Part shown: piece after piece, positions 11,937-22,882 of the stretch
Layout of the letters: the number at the start of each line of letters is the position of its first letter
Position numbering within the stretch: position 1 is the stretch's first letter
Assembly (NCBI GenBank): GCA_029961685.1
Contig: JARWKL010000002.1
Span: forward strand, 32,580,908 to 32,644,907
Direction of reading: 5' to 3'
DNA: 64,000 bases
Source of the DNA: Aristolochia californica
Lineage: Eukaryota; Streptophyta; Magnoliopsida; Piperales; Aristolochiaceae
Notes under the pieces: model-generated
Database searches by the model: none
What the model was told of the DNA's origin: nothing
Seen by the model: the letters and a program-made list of their open reading frames with translations, nothing else
Translations under genes and position numbers: made by a program

Positions 11937-12459
11937 CAAGCCCACACGACCAAGGAAGGCCCACATATCTAAGATTATTATAAGATGGCCCACACCACCA
12001 AGGAAGACCCACAAGTTGGGCCCAAACCCATAAGAAGTAGGACCCACATCAGTTTCAAGATGAAGAAAGACTCACAAAAGTATCTTATCATATGGTCACG
12101 TCAAAGAAGAGTTTTAGTTTGAGTTATGTTTGTCTTTTATCAATATTGAGTTATTTAATTATGCTAAGACTTATCTTTAAGTGTTAGAGTTTGGGTGTAA
12201 TTGGGACAAGGGTAGTTTTATTGTAATTGGACTCTACTACCTTCCTCTATTATAAATAGAGGTTCATGTACTCTAATTACAACAAGTTATTGATGTCAAT
12301 GAAGTACTTCACTTTTCCATAAATTCAAAAAATCGTCAACATAGGTCGACCGAGCAGAGCTAGACGACCTGGTTTTGATTCAGAATTGCAAGAAGGGGTC
12401 TCTTCTGGTTGAATCACCCGGTTCATGGTCAGAGACCACAACACATATCATATAACACA

Positions 12460-12592
12460 ACTTACTCATTGATAGGCCTTGGAGAGAATATTATGATACT
12501 TAAATGGAGCCCAAGGAAGAGGTTTGCTTTATAAGAAAAATGGCCACTTCGACTTAGAAGGTTTCTCATATGTGGATTGGGCTAGATCACCT
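12460..12592 (+). pseudogene. Copia C6 RNase H fragment
   Basis: Plus-strand fragment homologous to the C1 RNase H region: ALERIL-YLNGAQGRGLLYKK, then GHFDLEGFSYVDWARSP. Three in-frame stops stand where Trp, Gln and Arg are expected (TGG to TGA, CAG to TAG, CGA to TGA). It lies between the G2 LTR end and the C0 LTR, so it is the older host sequence into which G2 had inserted. Confidence 0.75.
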
Positions 12593-12740
12593 TGTTGAAT
12601 TTAGGATCCCTTTTCCAATATTCAAAACAAGAGAAAGGAGAAAGAATAAGAAGAAAAGGGAAGAAAAACTCTCAGGTAGAGAGAATCCTTAGGGTGGGTC
12701 CCACCAGCTCGTGCACCATGGTTGGTCCCACATTGTAACA
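12593..12740 (-). repeat. C0 3' LTR remnant
   Basis: Starts TGTTGAATTTAGG and ends CACATTGTAACA next to a pyrimidine tract (CTCCCCCTC). On the minus strand that tract is the C0 polypurine tract. At 148 bases it is much shorter than other copia LTRs here, so it is internally deleted. Its outer end matches the C5 LTR. Confidence 0.7.
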
Positions 12741-13610
12741 CTCCCCCTCAAACTGGGGGTGAGAAAACATCTTAAATGCCCAGCTTGCTGTAGAAAGTAT
12801 AAATAATCTTGTGAGTGACCAGCTTGGTGCGAATATCTACAACTTGACTTTGTGATGATATATGCCTTAGAGATATAAAACATGTTTGGAACTTTTCTTA
12901 TATAAAATGGCAGTCCGCTTCAATATGCTTTGTTCTTTCATAGAAGACTAGATTTTATGTAATGTGTATTGCTATTTGATTATCACAATATAGATCTATC
13001 AGAGCTTCTTTGTAGAATCCCAATTCAGTGAGAAGAGATCTTATCCATAGGAACTCACTAACAGTGTGTGCCATGGCTCTTTATTCTGCTTCTGCACTAG
13101 ACTGTGCTACTACATTTTGCTTCTTGTTTTTCCATGTAACCAAATTCCCTCCAACCAATGTACAAAATCCCAAAGTAGATTTTCTGTCATCCGGGGATCC
13201 GACCCAGTTTGCATATGAGAATCCTTCTATATTGAAGTGACCATGGTTTTTATAGAGAAGTCCTCTTCATGGAGTTCCTTTCAGATATCGTAGTATCCTT
13301 TTAAGTGTTTGCCAATGACTAAGTTGTGGCTTGTGCATGTATTGACTTACCACACTTACTGCATATGATATTTCCGGCCTTGTTACACACAGGTAAATAA
13401 GTGTTCCTACTAGTCTTTGATATTTCCCAATATATACATCATGTCCAGTGCATCCACATAATTTTGTATTTGAGTCCATAGGAGTGTCTACTGGTTTGCC
13501 TCCCATCATTCATGTCTCCTCTAGTAGATCAAGGGCATACTTCCTTTGGGATAGCACAATCCCATGTCTGGATAGTAATACTTCAATACCCAAAAAATAT
13601 TTGAGTAGTC
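12741..13610 (-). pseudogene. Copia C0 RNase H and pol end
   Basis: Minus-strand 3' part of a copia pol. At 13509-13267 it reads GKPVDTPMDSNTKL, YQRLVGTLIYL, RPEISYAVSVVSQYMH and RILRYLKG, the connection/RNase H region. Further RNase H sequence in several frames runs down to about 12850. Before the Met of this frame a TGA sits at the position corresponding to the C1 stop near 21578. The gene is cut at 13610 by G1 and resumes at 19196. Confidence 0.9.
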
Positions 13611-13876
13611 TGTTATGGACTCATTAGGTGTTTATTTGTAATTTTTATTCATTAGGGGTTTATTTGTAATTTTTATTCATTAGGGGTTTATTTGCAATTT
13701 CTACTCATTAAGGGTTTATTTGTAATTTGTTGAAATTATGGCCTTTGGCATGTTTTCCCTAACTCCCTAAAGTAAGCATTGAGAAAAATAGAATTAAACA
13801 GGTCGGATTCTCCCTTAGAGGTCTAGGTCAGATTCTCCCTTTGAGGTCCCTTCCTCCCCACGTAGGAAGAAATCGT

Positions 13877-14285
13877 TGTTATGCACACAATAACATTATT
13901 ATTTTAGTTGCTTTCTTTAATTTACTTTATTTATTTCAGTTTTAGGCCACATGGGTATTTTTGGAATATTTTATTTATAGGGGTATTTTTGTAATATTTT
14001 ATCTTAAACCCTAACAGGGTGAACCCTATTTAAGGGGTAATGAGAAAGGGAGGCATTGAAGTATTAAGAATTAGGTTAAATCTAGCGTAAAGAGGCTTGA
14101 GATCACCTTCTTGATCTCGAGGTTAGGGTTTTCCTCAAAAACCCACGTATTCTCTCATCCTCCATTGATCTTTGTCTTCCCCATGTCTTCCTACTATCCC
14201 TATAGTAATGCCTGGAAGACCCGTAACGCGTGGCAGATCCCAGATCCTCCCAAGGAATCCTTGTGTCAGATCCAGGACCGTAACA
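13877..14285 (+). repeat. G8 5' LTR
   Basis: Starts TGTTATGCACAC and ends GACCGTAACA. It contains CCCTATTTAAGGGG, a possible TATA region. It is nearly identical to 15328-15742 except for short indels. Confidence 0.88.
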
Positions 14286-14299
14286 ACTGGTATCGGAGT

Positions 14300-15327
14300 G
14301 GGAACACAATGGGTTATTCTATATCCCAAGTAAGATGGATTGCTATGGGTAAGGAATTGGAAGAAATAGGATAACAATTAGATGCTTCCATTTAACGCTA
14401 TGCAAGGGAGGAACTCGCTACTACAACAAAACAAGTCACACGACCTCAAATCTTTGACCACATATGCGCACAAGAGGTAGCAGAAGCTATCATGGACGGG
14501 CAGAACAGCCCATGGCCGAAAAAATAAAAAAATTCGCCTCCGTTACCGACCGAAGTCCCTATAGCAGAGGCAGACGCTAATGAGGAAAAAGGCACGACAT
14601 TAGAAATTTTCAAATTTTCCCCGCAGGGAGATTCAAAGCCGCACAACGGGGATCACGATTTGGGGCATTTGGCAGGGTTTTCTGCCAAGACATCGTAATC
14701 AATCCTCCCCTGCTCACGGCAAGCCACACTCCGTTTCACACGGGAGAGGAAAACTTTTCCAGCCATTCTGATCGGGAAATATTTTTGAGAGTCTGTCTAG
14801 GCAAATTTCCAAGCAGCGAAGCCTCCAAGGGCTGTTGTTCACCGCAGGAGCAGCAGGAGACTCCGTCGGCGAAATTTCCGCCCTATTTGGGTCCGTGAGG
14901 ACTGAGCGACCGTCGCCCACCTTTGTCGGTGGCTTGAGGGAAGGAGCAGCTGTTGACAAGGTTCCTGCACTTACCGAAGGCCACTATGTTTGGAATCCGC
15001 AAGAGGATACGGCAGGGTTCCGATTTCCGAAGACCTATTGGCGAAATTTTCGTCGAAGGCAGAAGATGGCTTCCGATTCAAATTTTCCTAAGTTAGGAAA
15101 ATTTAATCAGCGCATGAAGCTGAGTCACGCGCCGGACTGGGGTTCCTAAACCGAGTCAACCCAGGCTAACTCTGACCGAGCCAAAAAAAAAAAAACAACT
15201 CCAATTTTGGGCGTCCAGAAGGGGGGTCATAGTTATCGCGGATGCTACTTCGACACCGGTGGAGATGTCGGCATACAGACACTACTTCCGAGCTTGAGGA
15301 CAAGCTCGTCTTCAGAGGGGGGTGTAA
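14300..15327 (+). other. G8 interior, unrecognised GC-rich sequence
   Basis: No protein family recognised. Short open frames exist on both strands but none exceeds about 100 codons. Near the 3' end are an inverted repeat AAATTTTCCTAAGTTAGGAAA (15081-15101), CCGAGTCAACCCAGG at 15158 and a 13-A run. The same arrangement is seen at 5630-5760 and, inverted, in C3. Part of the interior may be captured host sequence. Confidence 0.5.
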
Positions 15328-15742
15328 TTTTATGCACGCAATAACATTATTATTTTAGTTGTTTTCTTTAATTCACTTTATTTATTTCAATTTTAGGCCA
15401 CTGGGGTATTTTTGGAATATTTTATTTATAGGGGTATTTTTGTAATATTTTATCTTAAACCCTAACAGGGTGAACCCTATTTAAGGGGTATGAGTAATGA
15501 GAAAGGGAAGCATTGAAGTATTAAGAATTAGGTTAAATCTAGCGTAAAGAGGCTTGAGATCACCTTCTTGATCTCAAGGTTAGGGTTTTCCTCAAAAACC
15601 TAGATATTCTCTCATCCTCCATTGATCTTCGTCTTCCCCATGTCTTCCTACTATCCCTATAGTAATGCCTGGAAGACCCATAACCCGTGGTAGATCTCAG
15701 ATCCTCCCAAAGAATCCTTGTGTCAAATCTGGGACCGTAACA
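15328..15742 (+). repeat. G8 3' LTR
   Basis: Partner of 13877-14285. It begins TTTTATGCACGC (a mutated TGTTATGCAC) and ends GACCGTAACA. 415 bases. Confidence 0.88.
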
Positions 15743-15764
15743 TTTATCCGGTGGTTGATCCGAA

Positions 15765-16277
15765 ATGGGGCATAACATTTTGGTATCAGAGCGGACCACC
15801 CATGGCGATTCATTTTCCTTGGAGGATTTGCATCGATATATGGTGGAACAGCATCCAGTTATGGAGAAACAGCATCAGGCCATGGCGCAGGCCATGGAGG
15901 AAATCAAGACGGTCATGTACGCTGTGAATGATAATTTACAGTGGATCATACGTCAACTAGATGAGGAAGCGGGTCGTGGTCAGACGCCACCGGGAAGTAG
16001 TTCCACTCTTCTGGCCAAGCACCACCATTCCCGCCTGCCCCCAACCCCACCACTTCTATGCCATCAAACTCTGCCCCCACCTAGGGCTCCTCTGCGCCCA
16101 TTACAACTTTCGTCCGCCAAAATGCCAATTCGGGAGCTCTTGGTCACAGAAAAGGTCCCCCAAATTCCCACACCAGACGGCGGTGACCCCAAATTGTGCA
16201 CACTGGAGACATTTTTCCCCACCCCTGTCTCACGGGAAGCCATACCTCTTCCTGCACAACGGACGCTTCCAGTCTGA
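15765..16277 (+). pseudogene. G1 gag N-terminus
   Basis: 171-codon frame. The ATG lies in the last bases of the 5' LTR and the frame crosses the primer site: MGHNILVSERTTHGDSFSLED aligns by eye with the G3 opening (NNVVSDRSTLGDSSSPED). A helical, Gln/Glu/Met-rich stretch follows (MVEQHPVMEKQHQAMAQAMEE, NLQWIIRQLDEE), the pre-capsid region in related Gags. Then comes a Pro-rich segment that diverges. The capsid domain never appears, so gag is truncated where the foreign sequence begins. Confidence 0.75.
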
Positions 16278-16842
16278 AGGATCGCAAACTCGAAAAAGCT
16301 TTCCGAACTCCCAAAATCAAAAGGCAGGGACCCAGATTTTGGGAAATCGAAAGACATTTCTGCCCAAATCTAGTCGATACAGGCTGATTTGGGTTCGACC
16401 TCCCAAATCCCCTTCTCACGGCTAGCCGCACATCTTCCCACACAGCAGACGAAAGTATTCCCATTTGCCTCGGTCATGGCAAATCAATTCGACCCTCCCT
16501 CCTCTATCTCCGACAATGTTATGCCCCATCCAAAATGGGGCATAACAGACAATCTACCAGCACCGGCAGAAACAAGAGTCCACCGGAAAATGAGGAAGCA
16601 TTGTCAAAAACTTGTCCGGTGGGGTGCGACTTCCGAATATCACCTCCCACTGCAATCCCCCTCTCAGCAGAACTGAGGGAACCCAACTTCCAAATTGGGT
16701 GGGCGTGGCTCAGAAACATTTTTCAGGGGGAATTGGCTTCCGGCCAACAACTATCAGTTTCAATCTCCTTCTCGGCAACCCAGTGGGGCACCCTCATCCA
16801 TGCAATCGTGGGGCATTGTCAAAATGGCAGCATCGATTCGAC
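16278..16842 (+). other. G1 unassigned segment before PPR piece
   Basis: Moderately GC-rich sequence that I cannot assign. It contains repeated CCCAAATC/GGGAAT words and the 31-base palindromic insertion at 16517-16547. From 16535 onward it is open in the frame that continues into the PPR-like part, but those first 100 or so residues look like no family I know. Confidence 0.4.
16517..16547. repeat. 31-base palindromic TG...CA insertion
   Basis: Arms TGTTATGCCCCAT and ATGGGGCATAACA with a 5-base centre, flanked by GACAA on both sides (16512-16516, 16548-16552). The right arm is identical to the last 13 bases of the G1 5' LTR. It has the signature of an integrated LTR-type end pair but no interior. 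Its ATG (16535) starts the 422-codon fusion frame. Confidence 0.85.
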
Positions 16843-17803
16843 ATCTCTGGTTTTTTATAGATTGGTCAAGGCAGGTTCTCAGCCAAACTCTGTAACTTAT
16901 TCATGTTTCCTTCATGGTCTTTGCAATGCTGGTCGTCTTAAGGAAGCATATGATATGCTCATTGACATGAGAAATAGAGGTGTTTGTCCTAACGTTCAAA
17001 CTTACACTGGTTTGATCTCTGGGTTGTTTAGAGTGGATTACTTTGAATTTCCTATTGGCTTGTTTAACAAGATGTTACAAGATAGTGTGGTTCCTCACCT
17101 AGTCACTAATAATGCTCGACAGCCATGGTATGAATTACTAGTCATACCTATTTGGTTTGAGCTTCTGTTTTCAATCATGATTCCACTTTCTATCAAGGTT
17201 TCTCTCGATTCAGTGACGAGTTTATATGCAACATTTATAGACTGGGATGATGAGATGTATGATACGGACACCAACACTCCTTCCCATGTTGTAAATACAT
17301 CAATCTGTGAGGATTTGGGACCAGTGGAGTACATTTTGCCTATTGTTAATGCTTGTTCTGAAGTTTATAGAAAGTTAGGTAGCTTTCATTTTCTCTGTAA
17401 GCACGGCTTGGATGGAACTCACCCTAGAGCTGACGGAAATGTTGACCTACTGACTAAATTTTGCAGTTCTACTGCTGGTATATATACTTCTCTTGGAATT
17501 CATAGTGAGAGTGAGCTTGCAATGACATGTGGAGCTATTGCAAAAAGGTTAGACCACGATAGATTTGGATTGGATGGGGAATTTGTTCAACATATAATAG
17601 AACAACTTCCTGAGGCCCACTCTTGTTGCCAGTATTATATGAGGAGGACTTATTTAGGGTCCCACAGTGATGACTTGCTCAGAAAATCTAAGAAGCAGTG
17701 CAATGAGGATTTGTTTAATGAACCGAGAGTTCCTCCTCCTTGTCAACCTTTGAGCAGCAGGCTTCCACCAGAGCTGGTTGGTGATGTTATTCAGGCATGG
17801 TAA
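16535..17803 (+). CDS. Fusion ORF: PPR-like plus MBD9-like
   Basis: 422-codon open frame within G1. Residues 1-4 (MGHN) come from the palindromic insertion and repeat the G1 gag start. Residues 5-102 are unassigned. Residues 103-190 are pentatricopeptide repeats. Residues 190-270 are unassigned and hydrophobic at first. Residues 270-422 resemble a plant MBD9-like chromatin protein, ending PPELVGDVIQAW before a stop. The frame is long for this AT-rich DNA. It is probably an accident of captured exons kept in frame, but an expressed chimera cannot be excluded. No upstream promoter other than the G1 LTR is evident. Confidence 0.55.
   Translation: MGHNRQSTSTGRNKSPPENEEALSKTCPVGCDFRISPPTAIPLSAELREPNFQIGWAWLRNIFQGELASGQQLSVSISFSATQWGTLIHAIVGHCQNGSIDSTSLVFYRLVKAGSQPNSVTYSCFLHGLCNAGRLKEAYDMLIDMRNRGVCPNVQTYTGLISGLFRVDYFEFPIGLFNKMLQDSVVPHLVTNNARQPWYELLVIPIWFELLFSIMIPLSIKVSLDSVTSLYATFIDWDDEMYDTDTNTPSHVVNTSICEDLGPVEYILPIVNACSEVYRKLGSFHFLCKHGLDGTHPRADGNVDLLTKFCSSTAGIYTSLGIHSESELAMTCGAIAKRLDHDRFGLDGEFVQHIIEQLPEAHSCCQYYMRRTYLGSHSDDLLRKSKKQCNEDLFNEPRVPPPCQPLSSRLPPELVGDVIQAW
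16843..17105 (+). pseudogene. Captured PPR gene fragment
   Basis: About 88 codons with the 35-residue PPR rhythm: VFYRLVKAGSQPNSVTYSCF, LHGLCNAGRLKEAYDMLIDM, RGVCPNVQTYTGLISGLF, then GLFNKMLQDSVVPHLVT. PPR proteins bind organellar RNA and usually have many repeats; only about two and a half are present. There are no targeting peptide and no further repeats, so it is a gene piece carried by G1. PPR genes are usually intronless, so this piece does not tell whether capture was through RNA. Confidence 0.85.
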
Positions 17804-18070
17804 TTACTATTTTGTTTTTATGACGTAGTAGAGCTAGAAGAGCTTATATCCTTTGAGGAACTTAAAAAAAAAAAACTCGGTTACCCATGGTTTGATGATC
17901 CAAACTATCTTGAAAAAGTTGAAAAAGAAATACAGCAAGAAAAATACCTTTCCATGCAGGGCAGTGAGTGCCCTGGCTTGTCCACTTCTTCGTCTACTTG
18001 TGAAGCTGGAATTCCTCCCAAGGATTATCTCAATGATTCAATTATTATGATTGAAGTGGAGTCCAACACT
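17347..18070 (+). pseudogene. Captured MBD9-like gene fragment
   Basis: Reads ACSEVYRKLGSFHFLC, DRFGLDGEFVQHIIEQLP, PLSSRLPPELVGDVIQAW. After a stop it continues in another frame as ISFEELKKK..LGYPWFDDPNYLEKVEKEI. From memory these match the conserved C-terminal half of plant methyl-CpG-binding-domain protein 9, a chromatin factor with PHD and DDT-type regions. The segment expected after VGDVIQAW (an EFLWRF-type helix) is missing, and the intervening bases GTAATTACT...GTAG resemble a short retained intron or deletion scar. Family assignment is moderate; another DDT-domain chromatin protein is possible. Confidence 0.55.
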
Positions 18071-18703
18071 AAAGCTGCTCATTTGAAAAAATTGGATCAT
18101 GCCCCTAAAAATCTTCAACTCTTTAGGGCCAAATGTTTGGCTTATGTCTCTCTTGGTGTGGCTAATGCAGGATATGCTGGAGTCTTCCATGTTGCAGGTC
18201 CATTCCCTCCGAGTAGTGTCCCCAATCCAGAGATTGACTTAATTGAGCCTACTGTGACTGGTACCCTCAATGTACCTAAGGCATTTACTGAGGCACATGT
18301 GAGACAAGTTATTGTTGTTTCTTCTCCCTTTGTTGTTCCTATGCCAACAGCATGGCCAAAGGATACAATCATGGATGAGACTTGATGGTCAGACAAAGTA
18401 TACTACAGAACAACTGGGAACTGGTACTGCCTTGCAAAAATAGCAGCCGCAAGTGAAGCTTTGGAGTATGGATAGAAACACAACATCCGGCGCATAGTTG
18501 ATGTCCGAGATGTTGCTAAAGCTCTTCTCCTTATCTATGCAAGATCAGACGCATCTAGGAGATCCATATGTGGCCCCCATGCAATACGGGCACATGATTT
18601 AGTTGACAAGTTACTGAGCATGTTTTCACAGTATAATTATCCTCAAAATTTTGTCAATGGTGGTGATGATATTTGTCTGAGCTTTGAGAGGGTGAAGAGT
18701 TAA
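18071..18703 (+). pseudogene. Captured cinnamoyl-CoA-reductase-like fragment
   Basis: NAD(P)-dependent short-chain reductase of the CCR/CAD-like family. It begins around AAHLKKLDHAPKNLQLF, then GVFHVAGPFPPSSVPNPEID, EPTVTGTLNV, a stop at 18384, and in the next stretch CWSDKVYYRTTGNWYCLAK with the catalytic YxxxK. After ALEYG a block of perhaps 60 residues is missing, then RRIVDVRDVAKALLLIYA and AHDLVDKLLSMF. The Rossmann glycine motif is absent at the N-terminus. The junction with the MBD9-like piece is in frame near EVES. No introns are seen, which favours capture from spliced RNA. Confidence 0.8.
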
Positions 18704-18896
18704 GGATGCTAAATATATATATATAAATAAAATAAAAAATAAAAATTTGCTCCTCTGCTAGGTTGCTCTACTTTTGTACTCCAGCGCGCTGCCGCTGATA
18801 CTGAGGTTGCCACTTTACATGGACCTAGCCGTCGGCACGGATATGCCATTCTACATTCAAGCTTAAGGGCAAGCTCGTTCTCCAGGAGGGGAGTAA
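18704..18896 (+). pseudogene. G1 pol tail and purine tract
   Basis: A short AT repeat is followed by the last codons of a gypsy pol: the DNA reads TTCAAGCTTAAGGGCAAGCT (FKLKGKL), then CTCCAGGAGGGGA. This corresponds to ELEDKLFLQEGG in related elements. The purine tract abuts the 3' LTR at 18897, confirming that G1 kept both ends of the parental element. Confidence 0.75.
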
Positions 18897-19190
18897 TGTT
18901 ATGGACTCATTATGGGTTTATTTTTAATTTCTATTCATTAGGGGTTTATTTTGAATTTCTACTCATTAGGGGTTTATTTTTAATTTGTTGAACTTATGGC
19001 CTTTGGCATGTTTTCCCTAACTCCCTATATAGGGACGTGAGATGAATGAAGAAAGTAAGCATTGAGAAAATTAGAATTAAACAGGTCGGATTCTCCCTTT
19101 GAGGTCCAAGGTCAAGCCTCCTTCAAGGCCGAATCCCTTCCTCCCCACGCTGGAAATCGTCCGGTGGTTGATCCAAAATGGGGTATAACA
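18897..19190 (+). repeat. G1 3' LTR
   Basis: 294 bases, TGTTATGGACTC to GGGGTATAACA. It contains three copies of the CATTAGGGGTTTATTT block. An ATG at 19178 (MGYN) marks the LTR-borne gag start. Confidence 0.9.
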
Positions 19191-19195
19191 TAGTC

Positions 19196-20412
19196 CAAGA
19201 TCCTTTTTCTTGAATTCAGCACATATGTTTTCCTTTTTTTTCTGGATGTCCTCGGAATCACTACCAGCTAAAATGATATCTTCAACATATACAACTAGAA
19301 TTACCTTACCTCTCGGTGTGTTTTCAATAAATACTGAGTGATCTCCAAAGCATCTGTAAAAGCCGGCCCGTATGAGGGCTTGACTAAATTTCTCAAACCA
19401 TGCCTAAGGGGACTGCTTTAGACCATTCAAATATTTTTTGAGGCGCCATACTGACTCCCCCTCAACCACATACCCAGGTGGTTTTGCATATAAATTTCTT
19501 CTTTAATATCCCCATTCAGAAATGCATTTTTCACATCAAGTTGAAATATCGACCATGATGAATTAGCTGCCAGAGATAATAATATACATATTGGGGTTCA
19601 TTTTTGCCACTGGAGAGAAGATTTCTTCATAATAAATTCTATCACATTGAGTATAAACTTTGGCAACCAGTCGATCCTTTAGTCGTGCAATTGACCCATC
19701 CAGATTATGTTTGATAATGTAAACCCACTTTCAACCAATGTGTTTTTTATTTGTTGGAAGAGGAACCAATGACCATGTCTGATTGTCATTAAGTGCCTTC
19801 ATTTCTTCATCCATTGTTGCCTTCCACCCTGGATGTTGTAGAGCCTCTTGATAGGACTATGAAATAGATATGGAGGAAATAGAAGAAAGAAACTGACAAC
19901 ATAAAGGTGAGAAGTGATGATGAGACACAAAATTTGAAATGGGATGAGAAGTAGAAGGTCTAGAGCATGGTCTAGGTTCTTTCCTTATAGAAATAGGACA
20001 AGTATCACATTGAGGGCCAAAAATAACTGGGGGTGAAGGACTTACCTCTGTTGGATTTGTTAACTCGGCAGGTGTGGTGTCGGGCACATGCTCTAGGGGT
20101 TGAATAATCTCAGTATGACGGGGCACAACCAGTCGAGGGGAACCTGGTACTGAGGACAGACCAGGAGGAGCACTATCAGAATAAAATGAGGAGTCTTCAA
20201 AATATATTACATCCTTGGAAACAAATAAACGTTGAAGAGTGGGACTATAACAAACATAACCCTTTTGTGTGTGAGAGTATCCCAAGAAGATACACTTGAT
20301 AGATTTAGGATCAAGTTTGCTGTGTCTAGGAAATGAATTATGAACAAAGCAATGACATCCGAAGACTGTCAAAGGTAGTGAAAATGAATCATCATTTGGT
20401 AATAATCTAGAG
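19196..20412 (-). pseudogene. Copia C0 integrase end and RT
   Basis: The frame 20372-19857 has VFGCHCFVHNSFPRHSKLDP and KCIFLGYSHTQKGYVCYSP, the conserved region after the copia integrase. It continues to ISNFVSHHHFSP. Lower down, with frameshifts, the RT follows (HPGWKATMDEEM, GSIARLKDRLVAK, then towards KDLGLLKYFLG at 19195/13605). It joins the 13610 end exactly once G1 and one TAGTC are removed, and the 26199 end once C1 and one TAGAG are removed. Confidence 0.9.
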
Positions 20413-20808
20413 TGTAGAATTTAGGATCTCATGAAAGGAACTTTAGATCAACAAGAAAGAAGAAGAAGAAGAAGAAGAAGAGAGAAGGAGAAGAGAAGAA
20501 GAAGAACGTGGAAGAAGAGAGTTCGGATTAAGGGAGAAGAGGGTTGCGTCAAAAAGAAAAATGAGGGCTGGACGAATTTGTGGAAAGAGAGGAGAGTGCT
20601 TTAGTGCCCTACCTCTTAGCCAATGCCTTTATTTATATTTTACAATACCCTTAGGGCTACAACTTGATAAAACAAAAGACATAAAAGGAACACATATTTA
20701 CACTTCTATGCCATCTTTATGGAAAGTACCATATTTTACACATATGCCACTCCTTTGACGTGTGGGCTTCTTGTCTTGAGCTCATAGGCTTGAGCCCATC
20801 TTCCAACA
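20413..20808 (-). repeat. C1 3' LTR
   Basis: Plus-strand ends TGTAGAATTTAGG and TCTTCCAACA. It contains a GAA microsatellite (20456-20485). The adjacent ATCCCCCTCAAGTTGGAGG at 20809 is, on the minus strand, the purine tract. Confidence 0.93.
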
Positions 20809-20875
20809 ATCCCCCTCAAGTTGGAGGAGAAAAGACATCATAAATACCCAGCTTGCCACATATAAACGATAGGAT

Positions 20876-21577
20876 TTAAGATGTAATGGGTTTAGTGAGA
20901 ATATCAGCTACTTGCTCTTGAGATGACACATGTTTGAGAGAGATTATTCCTGCTTGAAACTTCTCCCATATAAAATGACAATCCACCTCAATATGTTTAG
21001 TTCTTTCATGAAAAACTGGATTTGAAGTGATATGAATGGCAGCTTGATTATCACAATGCAGATTCATGGATCCCTTTTTATAAAAACCTAGTTCGGTAAG
21101 AAGGGTCCTAATCCATAAAATTTCACTAACGGTATGGGCCATAGCTCTGTATTCTGCTTCGGCACTAGATTTTGCAACCACATTTTGCTTCTTACTTTTC
21201 CATGTAACCAAGTTTCCCCCAACCAGAGTAGAATATCCTGATGTAGATTTTCTATCATCAGGAGATCCAACCCAATCTGCATCTGAGAAGCCTTCTATGT
21301 TGAAGTGCCCATGTTTTTTATACAGCAATCCTCTTCCTGGAGCTCCTTTTAGATAGCGTAATATTCTCTCTAAAGCCTGCCAGTGGGTAATTTGTGGTTT
21401 GTGCATGAATTGACTCACCACACTTACAGCATATGATATGTCTGGCCTAGTTACCGTGAGATAAATCAGTTTTCCCACAAGTCTTTGATATTTGCCAATA
21501 TCAATATCTTCTTCATTTGTGGCACATAATTTTACATTTGTATCCATAGGTGTGTCAACTGGTCTACAACCCTTCAT
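20876..21577 (-). CDS. C1 RNase H
   Basis: 233-codon frame: RPVDTPMDTNVKL, YQRLVGKLIYL, FSDADWVGSPDDRKSTSGY, KSKKQNVVAKSSAEAEYRA, LHCDNQAAI and ADILTKPI, the complete copia RNase H with its conserved acidic residues. It degrades the RNA strand during reverse transcription. In an intact element it is fused to RT; here a TGA separates it from the RT frame, in the sequence ETTGAATGAAGG-like context (E-T-stop-M-K-G). Confidence 0.92.
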   Translation of the reverse strand: MKGCRPVDTPMDTNVKLCATNEEDIDIGKYQRLVGKLIYLTVTRPDISYAVSVVSQFMHKPQITHWQALERILRYLKGAPGRGLLYKKHGHFNIEGFSDADWVGSPDDRKSTSGYSTLVGGNLVTWKSKKQNVVAKSSAEAEYRAMAHTVSEILWIRTLLTELGFYKKGSMNLHCDNQAAIHITSNPVFHERTKHIEVDCHFIWEKFQAGIISLKHVSSQEQVADILTKPITS

Positions 21578-22882
21578 TCATGTTTCTTCAAGGAGATCCA
21601 AGACATATTTCCTTTGAGACAATATTATCCCATGTTTGGATTGAAGAACTTCTATACCCAAAAAATATTTAAGCATACCAAGGTCTTTAGTCTTGAATTC
21701 CTGACATATCATCTGTTTCACCTCTTGTATGCTCAAAGCATCATCACCGGTTAAGATAATATCATCCACGTATATGGCCAATAATATTTTCCCTTTGATC
21801 GTATCTTTATAATATACGGAATGATCAACTGAGCACCGATGAAAACCAAACCGTAGGAGTGTTTGACTAAATTTATCAAACCAAGCCTGAGGGGACTGCT
21901 TAAGCCCATATAAAGACTTTTTTAATCGGCATACTGACTCCCCCTCAACCACATAACCAGGTGGTTGAACCATATAAATTTCCTCACTGATATCACCATT
22001 TAAAAAAGCATTTTTAACATCCAACTGATAGACGGGCCATGAGGAGTTAGTAGCAATAGATAAGATGATGCGTACCGAATTCAATTTTGCAACAGGAGAG
22101 AAGGTCTCCTCATAATCTATCCTATAGCACTGCGTATAGCCCTTAGCAACCAGTCGAGCTTTAAGACGAGCAACCGATCCATTCGGATTATGTTTCACTG
22201 AAAAAACCCATCGACAACCAACCGGTCTTTTACCTTTCGGGAGTAATGTTAAGTACCAGGTTTGGTTTTCGAATAAGGCGTGCATTTCTTCATCCATAGC
22301 CGCCTTCCATCCTGGATGTCTCAGGGCCTCCTGATACGACTGCGGAATGGAACTAGAAGAAAGGGATGCAAGAAACTGAAAACACTCGGAAGACAAGCGA
22401 TGGTGAGACATAAAATTTGAGATAGGATGCGAAGTAGTACAGGAGCGACGTTCTTTTCTTAAAGCAATAGGCCGAGTATCAAATTCAGGCCTATACATAG
22501 GAGGAGAAGGACTTACCTCGGGTGGATCCGACAACTCCACAGGTGAAGTTACGGCCGGTGCATCAGGGGATGGATCCACTTCAAGATTGAACGGCACAAG
22601 CGGACAAGGAGTAGTAGAAGGACAAGTCCATCCTGGAGGAGCATCATGGGAGGAGTAGAAGGGAGTGTCCTCAAAGAAAGTCACATCCCTAGAGATAAAC
22701 ATCATCTGAAGGGTAGGATTGTAACAGACATAACCTTTCTGGGTGCGAGAGTATCCCAAAAAAATGCACTTCATAGACCGAGGATCAAGTTTATTTTTAT
22801 GTGGAGATGTAACATGAACAAAACACGTACATCCAAACACTTTCAAAGGAAGAGAAAAAGGATCTTCACCATTAAATAACAC
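21578..22882 (-). CDS. C1 integrase C-terminus and RT
   Basis: 434-codon frame. It opens with the post-integrase region (FGCTCFVHVTSPHKNKLDP, IFLGYSRTQKGYVCYNP), then a variable linker, then RT: WKAAMDEEMHALFENQTW, RWVFSVKHNPNGSVARLKAR, YQLDVKNAFLNGDI, LYGLKQSPQAWFDKF and the catalytic YVDDIILTG. Domain content and spacing match copia. It ends LLEET before the TGA. Confidence 0.93.
   Translation of the reverse strand: MLFNGEDPFSLPLKVFGCTCFVHVTSPHKNKLDPRSMKCIFLGYSRTQKGYVCYNPTLQMMFISRDVTFFEDTPFYSSHDAPPGWTCPSTTPCPLVPFNLEVDPSPDAPAVTSPVELSDPPEVSPSPPMYRPEFDTRPIALRKERRSCTTSHPISNFMSHHRLSSECFQFLASLSSSSIPQSYQEALRHPGWKAAMDEEMHALFENQTWYLTLLPKGKRPVGCRWVFSVKHNPNGSVARLKARLVAKGYTQCYRIDYEETFSPVAKLNSVRIILSIATNSSWPVYQLDVKNAFLNGDISEEIYMVQPPGYVVEGESVCRLKKSLYGLKQSPQAWFDKFSQTLLRFGFHRCSVDHSVYYKDTIKGKILLAIYVDDIILTGDDALSIQEVKQMICQEFKTKDLGMLKYFLGIEVLQSKHGIILSQRKYVLDLLEET

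Follow-up and report, generated by a model that had tools for sequence, protein, structure and literature searches.

Pieces of four host genes joined in one reading frame inside a non-autonomous LTR element of Aristolochia californica

Results

We analysed a window of 64,000 bp (C111:32580908-32644907) from the 659.6-Mb, 521-contig assembly of Aristolochia californica, in which positions 13611-19190 are occupied by G1, a non-autonomous long terminal repeat (LTR) element with a TAGTC target site duplication at either side. G1 carries pieces of four host genes (PPR, ALA2, MBD9-like and CCR-like), all on the forward strand and within a single reading frame (16388-18703) that contains stops at 17801, 18383 and 18473. 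The boundaries of the pieces lie near 16811, 17114, 17338-17342 and 18078-18081, and not at 16843, 17347 and 18070, where a first-pass annotation had placed the junctions. That annotation had described two or three host genes joined in one orientation and partly in frame; the multi-gene cargo, its orientation and its frame were confirmed, and the count rises to four with the ALA2 piece (17114-17341), which had been missed.

The first piece (16811-17116) derives from an 804-aa PPR frame on contig C438, lacks one 35-aa repeat (105 nt) and matches Pfam PPR_2 (E 1e-22), in line with the PPR repeats initially proposed. It is followed by a piece of the P4-ATPase ALA2 (17114-17341), with relatives in the PDB (3e-6), 82% identity to P0035 (ALA2 of A. 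californica) and a 30-nt in-frame deletion. The MBD9-like piece (17342-18081), which has a 54-nt in-frame deletion, gave a protein match at E 1e-114, 73-75% identity to P0031 and a Pfam match to FYRC (2.1e-4); a PDB search with this piece returned no hits. Its assignment to MBD9 stands, although not its description as a C-terminal stretch: by alignment it covers a central part of the protein (aa 586 to ~846 of 2175, the FYRC region), which rules out the C-terminus as the source. The 54-nt gap is not an alternative intron, as it shows no GT-AG. Finally, the CCR-like reductase piece (18078-18703) corresponds to aa ~41-180 and 221-292 of P0001 (E 3e-73; 55% identity with the gap counted; kavalactone reductase 1e-18), the length of the gap (41 aa) being taken from the protein alignment. 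It contains the stretch NWYCLAK, which we take to be the YxxxK motif. Matches at 1e-114 and 3e-73 thus bear out the two assignments that had seemed most in need of a search, and the same order of pieces recurs in many genomic copies.

The donors are located on separate contigs (PPR on C438, ALA2 on C68, MBD9 on C511, CCR on C46/C24), and no gene locus in which the pieces adjoin, including a contiguous intron-bearing one, was present among the matches listed in the donor searches. Five donor introns are absent from the cargo (one of MBD9, two of ALA2, two of CCR), and a sixth, of ALA2, on thin evidence. The MBD9 donor on C511 (P0031, 2175 aa), with stretches of 94-100% identity, has a 374-bp GT-AG intron that is precisely absent from the cargo, and both MBD9 breakpoints fall inside exons. 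Two introns of the ALA2 donor (1253 and 264 bp) are likewise absent, and so is a third (354 bp), provided that the 9 nt GCTCGACAG (17114-17122) represent the end of the preceding exon. Aligned with the C24 gene, the CCR piece continues uninterrupted past introns 2 and 3, as expected from the earlier description of a reductase piece without introns. A paralog on C46, whose exons are also separated, is nearer to the cargo: identity was 87-90% to this paralog and 81-83% to the C24 gene in 15 of 16 copies of the four-gene type (type B, described below), and 86% versus 78% in the remaining copy (L022), which rules out the C24 gene as direct donor. Near position 1925 of locus L048, intron 2 of the C24 gene appears to begin with GC rather than GT. 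The PPR donor is an intronless open frame and is hence silent on splicing. Because donor introns are absent, the cargo derives from spliced RNA, as first proposed; capture by this route is shown for three of the four donors. The cargo is thus made of exons of multiple host genes, as in a transducing retroelement of the Bs1 kind.

G1 is not a lone odd copy. A genome search with its interior (best 40 of 849 candidates scored) gave at least 79 matches, and the match table held at least 28 places with the MBD9 part (type B, the four-gene type, G1 included) and at least 8 with PPR and CCR parts only (type A), which answers the earlier suggestion to look for other copies. With the type-A PPR stretch as query, at least 14 places matched over almost its whole length, and shorter classes were also listed. 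Of the 28 loci fetched, 21 contained type B and 8 type A, with both in L016. Junctions agree in all 16 aligned uninterrupted type-B copies (one has a 12-nt deletion at the last junction), from which we conclude that one founder was amplified. In type A, ~80 nt of unassigned sequence separates the PPR and CCR parts; since the two types share the CCR gap and keep different parts of the PPR gene, both come from an earlier PPR+CCR element. Divergence between paired LTRs, as the Kimura two-parameter distance (K2P), was 0.057-0.108 in 11 type-B copies besides G1 and 0.057-0.086 in 7 type-A copies; these values leave out 10 of the 28 loci, four with no pair in the stretch (L001, L020, L023, L024) and six in which the script paired other repeats (L007, L016, L017, L019, L025, L027). 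A script found exact target site duplications at 6 further loci of the family and none at the others. Two type-B copies on C478 (L003 and L005) have the same duplication, GGCGA, perhaps through segmental duplication.

Some annotated genes coincide with these copies. The RefSeq PPR model P0153 (395/395 aa) can be read in one frame from the type-A copy L013, whereas P0025 (429/429 aa), read from L014, takes two frames; some of the PPR annotation in A. californica is therefore element sequence. The fetched loci contained no match at 96% identity to P0024, P0151, P0152, P0154 or P0156, and only a partial one to P0027. A further PPR-derived class (query parts 133-399 and 396-839) occurs at C2:25236395, C438:31327179, C438:23048980, C221:33184690 and elsewhere; RefSeq P0152, which seems to join two kinds of PPR protein, may belong to it.

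We assessed whether the changes that accompanied the founding of each type kept the reading frame. In type B the PPR deletion is 105 nt (split by the aligner into 54+51 in one of eight copies), and the ALA2 and MBD9 deletions are 30 and 54 nt, each in 8/8 copies. The CCR gap of 41 codons (123 nt) is common to both types (seen for type A in P0024), and type A has deletions of 231 nt in 7/7 copies and 81 nt in 5/7 (45+36 in one other, broken up in L009). All of these lengths (105, 30, 54, 123, 231 and 81 nt) are multiples of 3. Moreover, the three type-B junctions are in frame, as are PPR and CCR relative to each other in 8/8 type-A copies. The frame was kept in 10/10 founding events, or 9/9 without the PPR repeat deletion (by chance ~5e-5 for the nine at 1/3 each), in a count made post hoc with frame-breaking, copy-specific gaps set aside. 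Type-A gaps that are not multiples of 3 (43, 71, 10 and 38 nt in L009; 38 nt in L010 and L011) were not counted as founding events, a choice that favours the frame argument; the 38-nt gaps are accompanied by additional sequence of about their own length close to the end, at the point where type A departs from the PPR gene. The kept frame is a hint that, ahead of amplification, cargo RNA that could be translated had an advantage.

There is no comparable sign of coding constraint among the copies as they stand. Across 16 type-B copies, differences per codon position were.0747,.0686 and.0606, and stops and frameshifts vary from copy to copy. The ratio of nonsynonymous to synonymous change (dN/dS) between copies was.65 for MBD9,.67 for ALA2 and 1.00 for CCR, and for the remainder towards the donor.84,.25 and.80, respectively. 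Purifying selection between copies, the mark of a domesticated chimeric gene, was therefore not detected in the codon-position and dN/dS tests; values of.65-.67 could reflect slight constraint. Given that third positions show no excess, the 16 copies are decaying neutrally, and the evidence at present supports no function for a chimeric protein.

Gene pieces are also carried by other LTR families in the genome. In the family termed E2, an intron-free ALA2 stretch within aa 292-577 was found at at least 17 places, and the DNA was read at four. One of these loci, L038 (LTR K2P 0.025, target site duplication CAAGC), holds Ysc84 (5.9e-6), aspartate carbamoyltransferase PYRB (3e-20) and a TOM1-like VHS piece (1.6e-27) beside ALA2; a weaker RRM piece lies under the Pfam cut-off, so that four or five genes are carried. 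Another, L039, combines ALA2 with QWRF (1.1e-26). Family E3 (five loci, L041-L045) carries PPR-E, CCR and Sugar_tr, in a single 651-aa frame in L043; an LTR-like 3' end is present in 5/5 loci, and a full LTR pair would lie beyond the fetched stretches. In E4 (L047, picked for its long open frame and thus a biased sample), the LTRs are 99.3% identical and resemble that of G1, and a 721-aa frame comprises leader, PPR-E and CCR, followed by enolase (Enolase_C 5.2e-14).

Modules appear to be shared between these families and G1. In all four distinct E2 loci read, the boundary between foreign sequence and ALA2 matches that of G1 to the nucleotide (the GCT codon for Ala of EARQ), and the substitution K339T is common to the G1 type and E2, while all 117 ALA2 proteins compared, including that of A. 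californica, have K. Among differing ALA2 columns, type B and E2 agree against the gene in 14, type B and the gene in 3, and E2 and the gene in 6; the 14:3 sharing is weakened as evidence by being mostly synonymous and by the chance of a lost donor locus, and the shared breakpoint is the better evidence. On these grounds, a single ALA2 capture was probably passed between element families. For CCR, which shows no such sharing, an unrooted tree groups E3 with E4 (.994) and splits type B from E3/E4 and the genes (.994), with a gene-paralog join at.751. The greater proximity of the C46 paralog led us to drop the idea of one CCR capture common to G1 and E3.

The ends of G1 are those of an LTR retrotransposon, with paired LTRs (TG...CA), a 5-bp target duplication (TAGTC at 13606-13610 and 19191-19195), a primer site after the 5' LTR and a purine tract before the 3' LTR. 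The first-pass annotation had identified all of these except the tract, and had taken the 5' LTR as contiguous; it is split instead into two parts, 13611-13876 and 15743-15777, on the forward strand like the 3' LTR (18897-19190). The first part agrees with the 3' LTR at 215/232 sites (92.7%, K2P 0.077), and the second is identical to its end at 30/35. Between them is a nested forward-strand LTR element, N2 (13877-15742), with its own LTRs (~13877-14286 and 15327-15742, 94.9% identity), which resemble the LTR of E2, and a degenerate target duplication (ATCGT/TTTAT); no gene piece was recognised in its interior, of which no Pfam search was made. The primer binding site TGGTATCAGAGC (15782-15793) is presumably of the tRNA-Met type. 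A gag-like start (15804-16009) is 32% identical to an element in the window across 71 aa (E 4.6e-4) and has a DNA match in 25/27 other fetched loci. It is followed by a leader (16010-16810) common to copies of both types in the segment map and weakly similar to that of E2. The 3' internal end with its polypurine tract (18848-18896) has 85% identity over 61 nt to another window element, in which RVT_1 precedes an integrase zinc-binding domain. The proposed "gag start" and "pol end" are accordingly weakly supported. Pfam and protein comparison of G1 found no pol, and so none of the reverse transcriptase before integrase that characterizes Ty3/gypsy; the element, initially called gypsy, is gypsy-like by its ends only. 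An Rfam search of 12000-22000 gave no matches at the gathering threshold.

The joined flanks of G1 match a copia stretch (21568-21812) at 173/225 sites, indicating that G1 inserted into an older, related copia. Within the leader, comparison of copies revealed a 31-bp palindrome (16517-16547) present only in G1, composed of two inverted LTR 3' ends and flanked by GACAA (16512-16516 and 16548-16552). Its exact pattern has no second occurrence genome-wide, and the other compared copies have the empty site. This arrangement resembles the product of an integrase inserting two U5 ends.

Discussion

The G1 cargo is best explained by assembly of host mRNA pieces during reverse transcription in a non-autonomous LTR family, followed by amplification of one founder and decay of its copies, to which we assign a probability of about 0.82. 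Enzymes of a related gypsy element would have acted in trans, spliced host mRNAs would have been packaged with element RNA in one particle, and the reverse transcriptase would have switched templates at short overlaps, joining the PPR, ALA2, MBD9 and CCR pieces that now lie side by side. The donors overlap by GCT at the PPR-ALA2 junction, GACTG at ALA2-MBD9 and TCTCA at MBD9-CCR; with breakpoints in mid-exon, these overlaps of 3-5 nt are suggestive of template switching. The ALA2 module was probably taken from E2, another element with gene cargo, and not directly from the gene. Retrotransposition then carried the founder to at least 28 places, G1 included.

Several points weigh against this account. 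At 3-5 nt the junction overlaps are short, and later mutations have blurred them; the transcription and packaging steps are proposed from DNA, and no autonomous partner element was recognised for the G1 family. Frame-keeping events were counted post hoc; repeats may have caused the PPR deletion, and only 5/7 type-A copies show a clean 81-nt gap. As regards shared modules, the CCR parts of G1 and of E3/E4 look like separate captures, and a lost ALA2 locus could have been the donor of both E2 and G1. Most differences between the ALA2 piece and the living gene are synonymous (dS 0.232 and dN 0.057 for the remainder), as would be expected if the donor locus had diverged under constraint or if the gene itself had changed.

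Alternatively, all four pieces may have entered together in one capture, from one chimeric transcript of the host or from a chimeric gene that did not last. The agreement of 16/16 copies in their junctions and the kept frame would be expected from such an origin. However, the donors lie on four contigs, no non-element locus with two pieces adjoining was seen among the matches listed, there are PPR+CCR copies without ALA2 and MBD9, and the ALA2 breakpoint recurs in an element with different cargo, all of which make this unlikely. Still less likely is a functional chimeric gene maintained by selection, the proposal made for Bs1 of maize: one frame does cross all four pieces (albeit with three stops), other families have long open frames (L043, 651 aa; L047, 721 aa), and two RefSeq models are readable from L013 and L014, but the flat codon-position differences and copy-to-copy dN/dS of.65-1.0 in type B are matched in the five E3 copies (.0721/.0566/.0582), and stops and frameshifts depend on the copy.

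Processed pseudogenes made by long interspersed nuclear elements (LINEs) and inserted one into another inside an LTR element would also lack introns, and L1-like retroposition has been proposed for dicots in the portion of PMC4838847 available; yet no poly(A) or target duplication was seen at the three junctions, and every piece is cut at both ends in one orientation and one frame, so that this route is very improbable. Least credible of all is successive uptake of genomic DNA with the LTR element as mere carrier (capture of the Helitron or Pack-MULE kind, common for host gene fragments according to the accessible part of PMC13317346, or filler DNA at breaks), since introns are precisely absent for three of four donors, the MBD9 breakpoints fall within exons, and the carrier has LTRs, a primer site and 5-bp target duplications.

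Reverse-transcription assembly has a precedent in Bs1, an LTR element with three host genes whose exon-only pieces are fused into a chimeric gene, as described in the available portions of PMC13317346 and PMC4717578. G1 differs in carrying four genes (its sister element L038 four or five), in its many dispersed neutral copies and in the presence of several families with common modules in one genome. A maize survey likewise found host fragments inside LTR elements, 425 of them, and, in the part of the source consulted, the conditions applied yielded no element with two or more standard nuclear genes (PMC2774510), whereas multi-gene cargo recurs here. Exon-only capture and extra frames are treated for terminal-repeat retrotransposons in miniature (TRIMs) in the accessible text of PMC4717578 and PMC7264820; the soybean TRIM is similarly a short non-autonomous LTR element with host exons and no introns, but with one gene (casein kinase I-like) rather than several (PMC4717578, same portion). 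Pack-MULEs and Helitrons also move and shuffle host gene pieces. Both are DNA transposons, and Pack-MULEs carry introns together with exons (PMC4717578, as far as available), whereas the cargo of G1 is RNA-borne and free of introns, and its ends are LTRs rather than terminal inverted repeats or rolling-circle ends. The word retrotransposon occurs 0 times in the paper on the A. californica assembly (PMC11334207), and a search of titles and abstract openings, with most subscription journals outside its reach, returned nothing on multi-gene LTR elements in Aristolochia.

G1 is therefore a real case, known in principle and unusually rich, in which the scale and the sharing of modules are new and exchange of modules is probable. 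In the literature found, as far as its accessible text goes, gene capture by LTR elements involves one gene and one or few copies, with Bs1 as the multi-gene case. Here several multi-gene LTR families coexist in one genome, one of them with near-identical LTRs, so that packaging, template jumps, frame keeping, spread and decay can be traced in living copies; in addition, some RefSeq PPR gene models prove to be element interiors. More tentatively, RNA-based gene shuffling may be continuing in A. californica, with copy-choice recombination of packaged element RNAs and host mRNAs, modules such as ALA2 passed between LTR families and a translation filter that lets cargo RNAs be amplified only if their frame is intact, before decay, a possibility we hold somewhat short of even. 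The G1 system is a natural test of exon shuffling through RNA, and it indicates that LTR elements are able to cut and paste gene parts at a larger scale than is usually seen.

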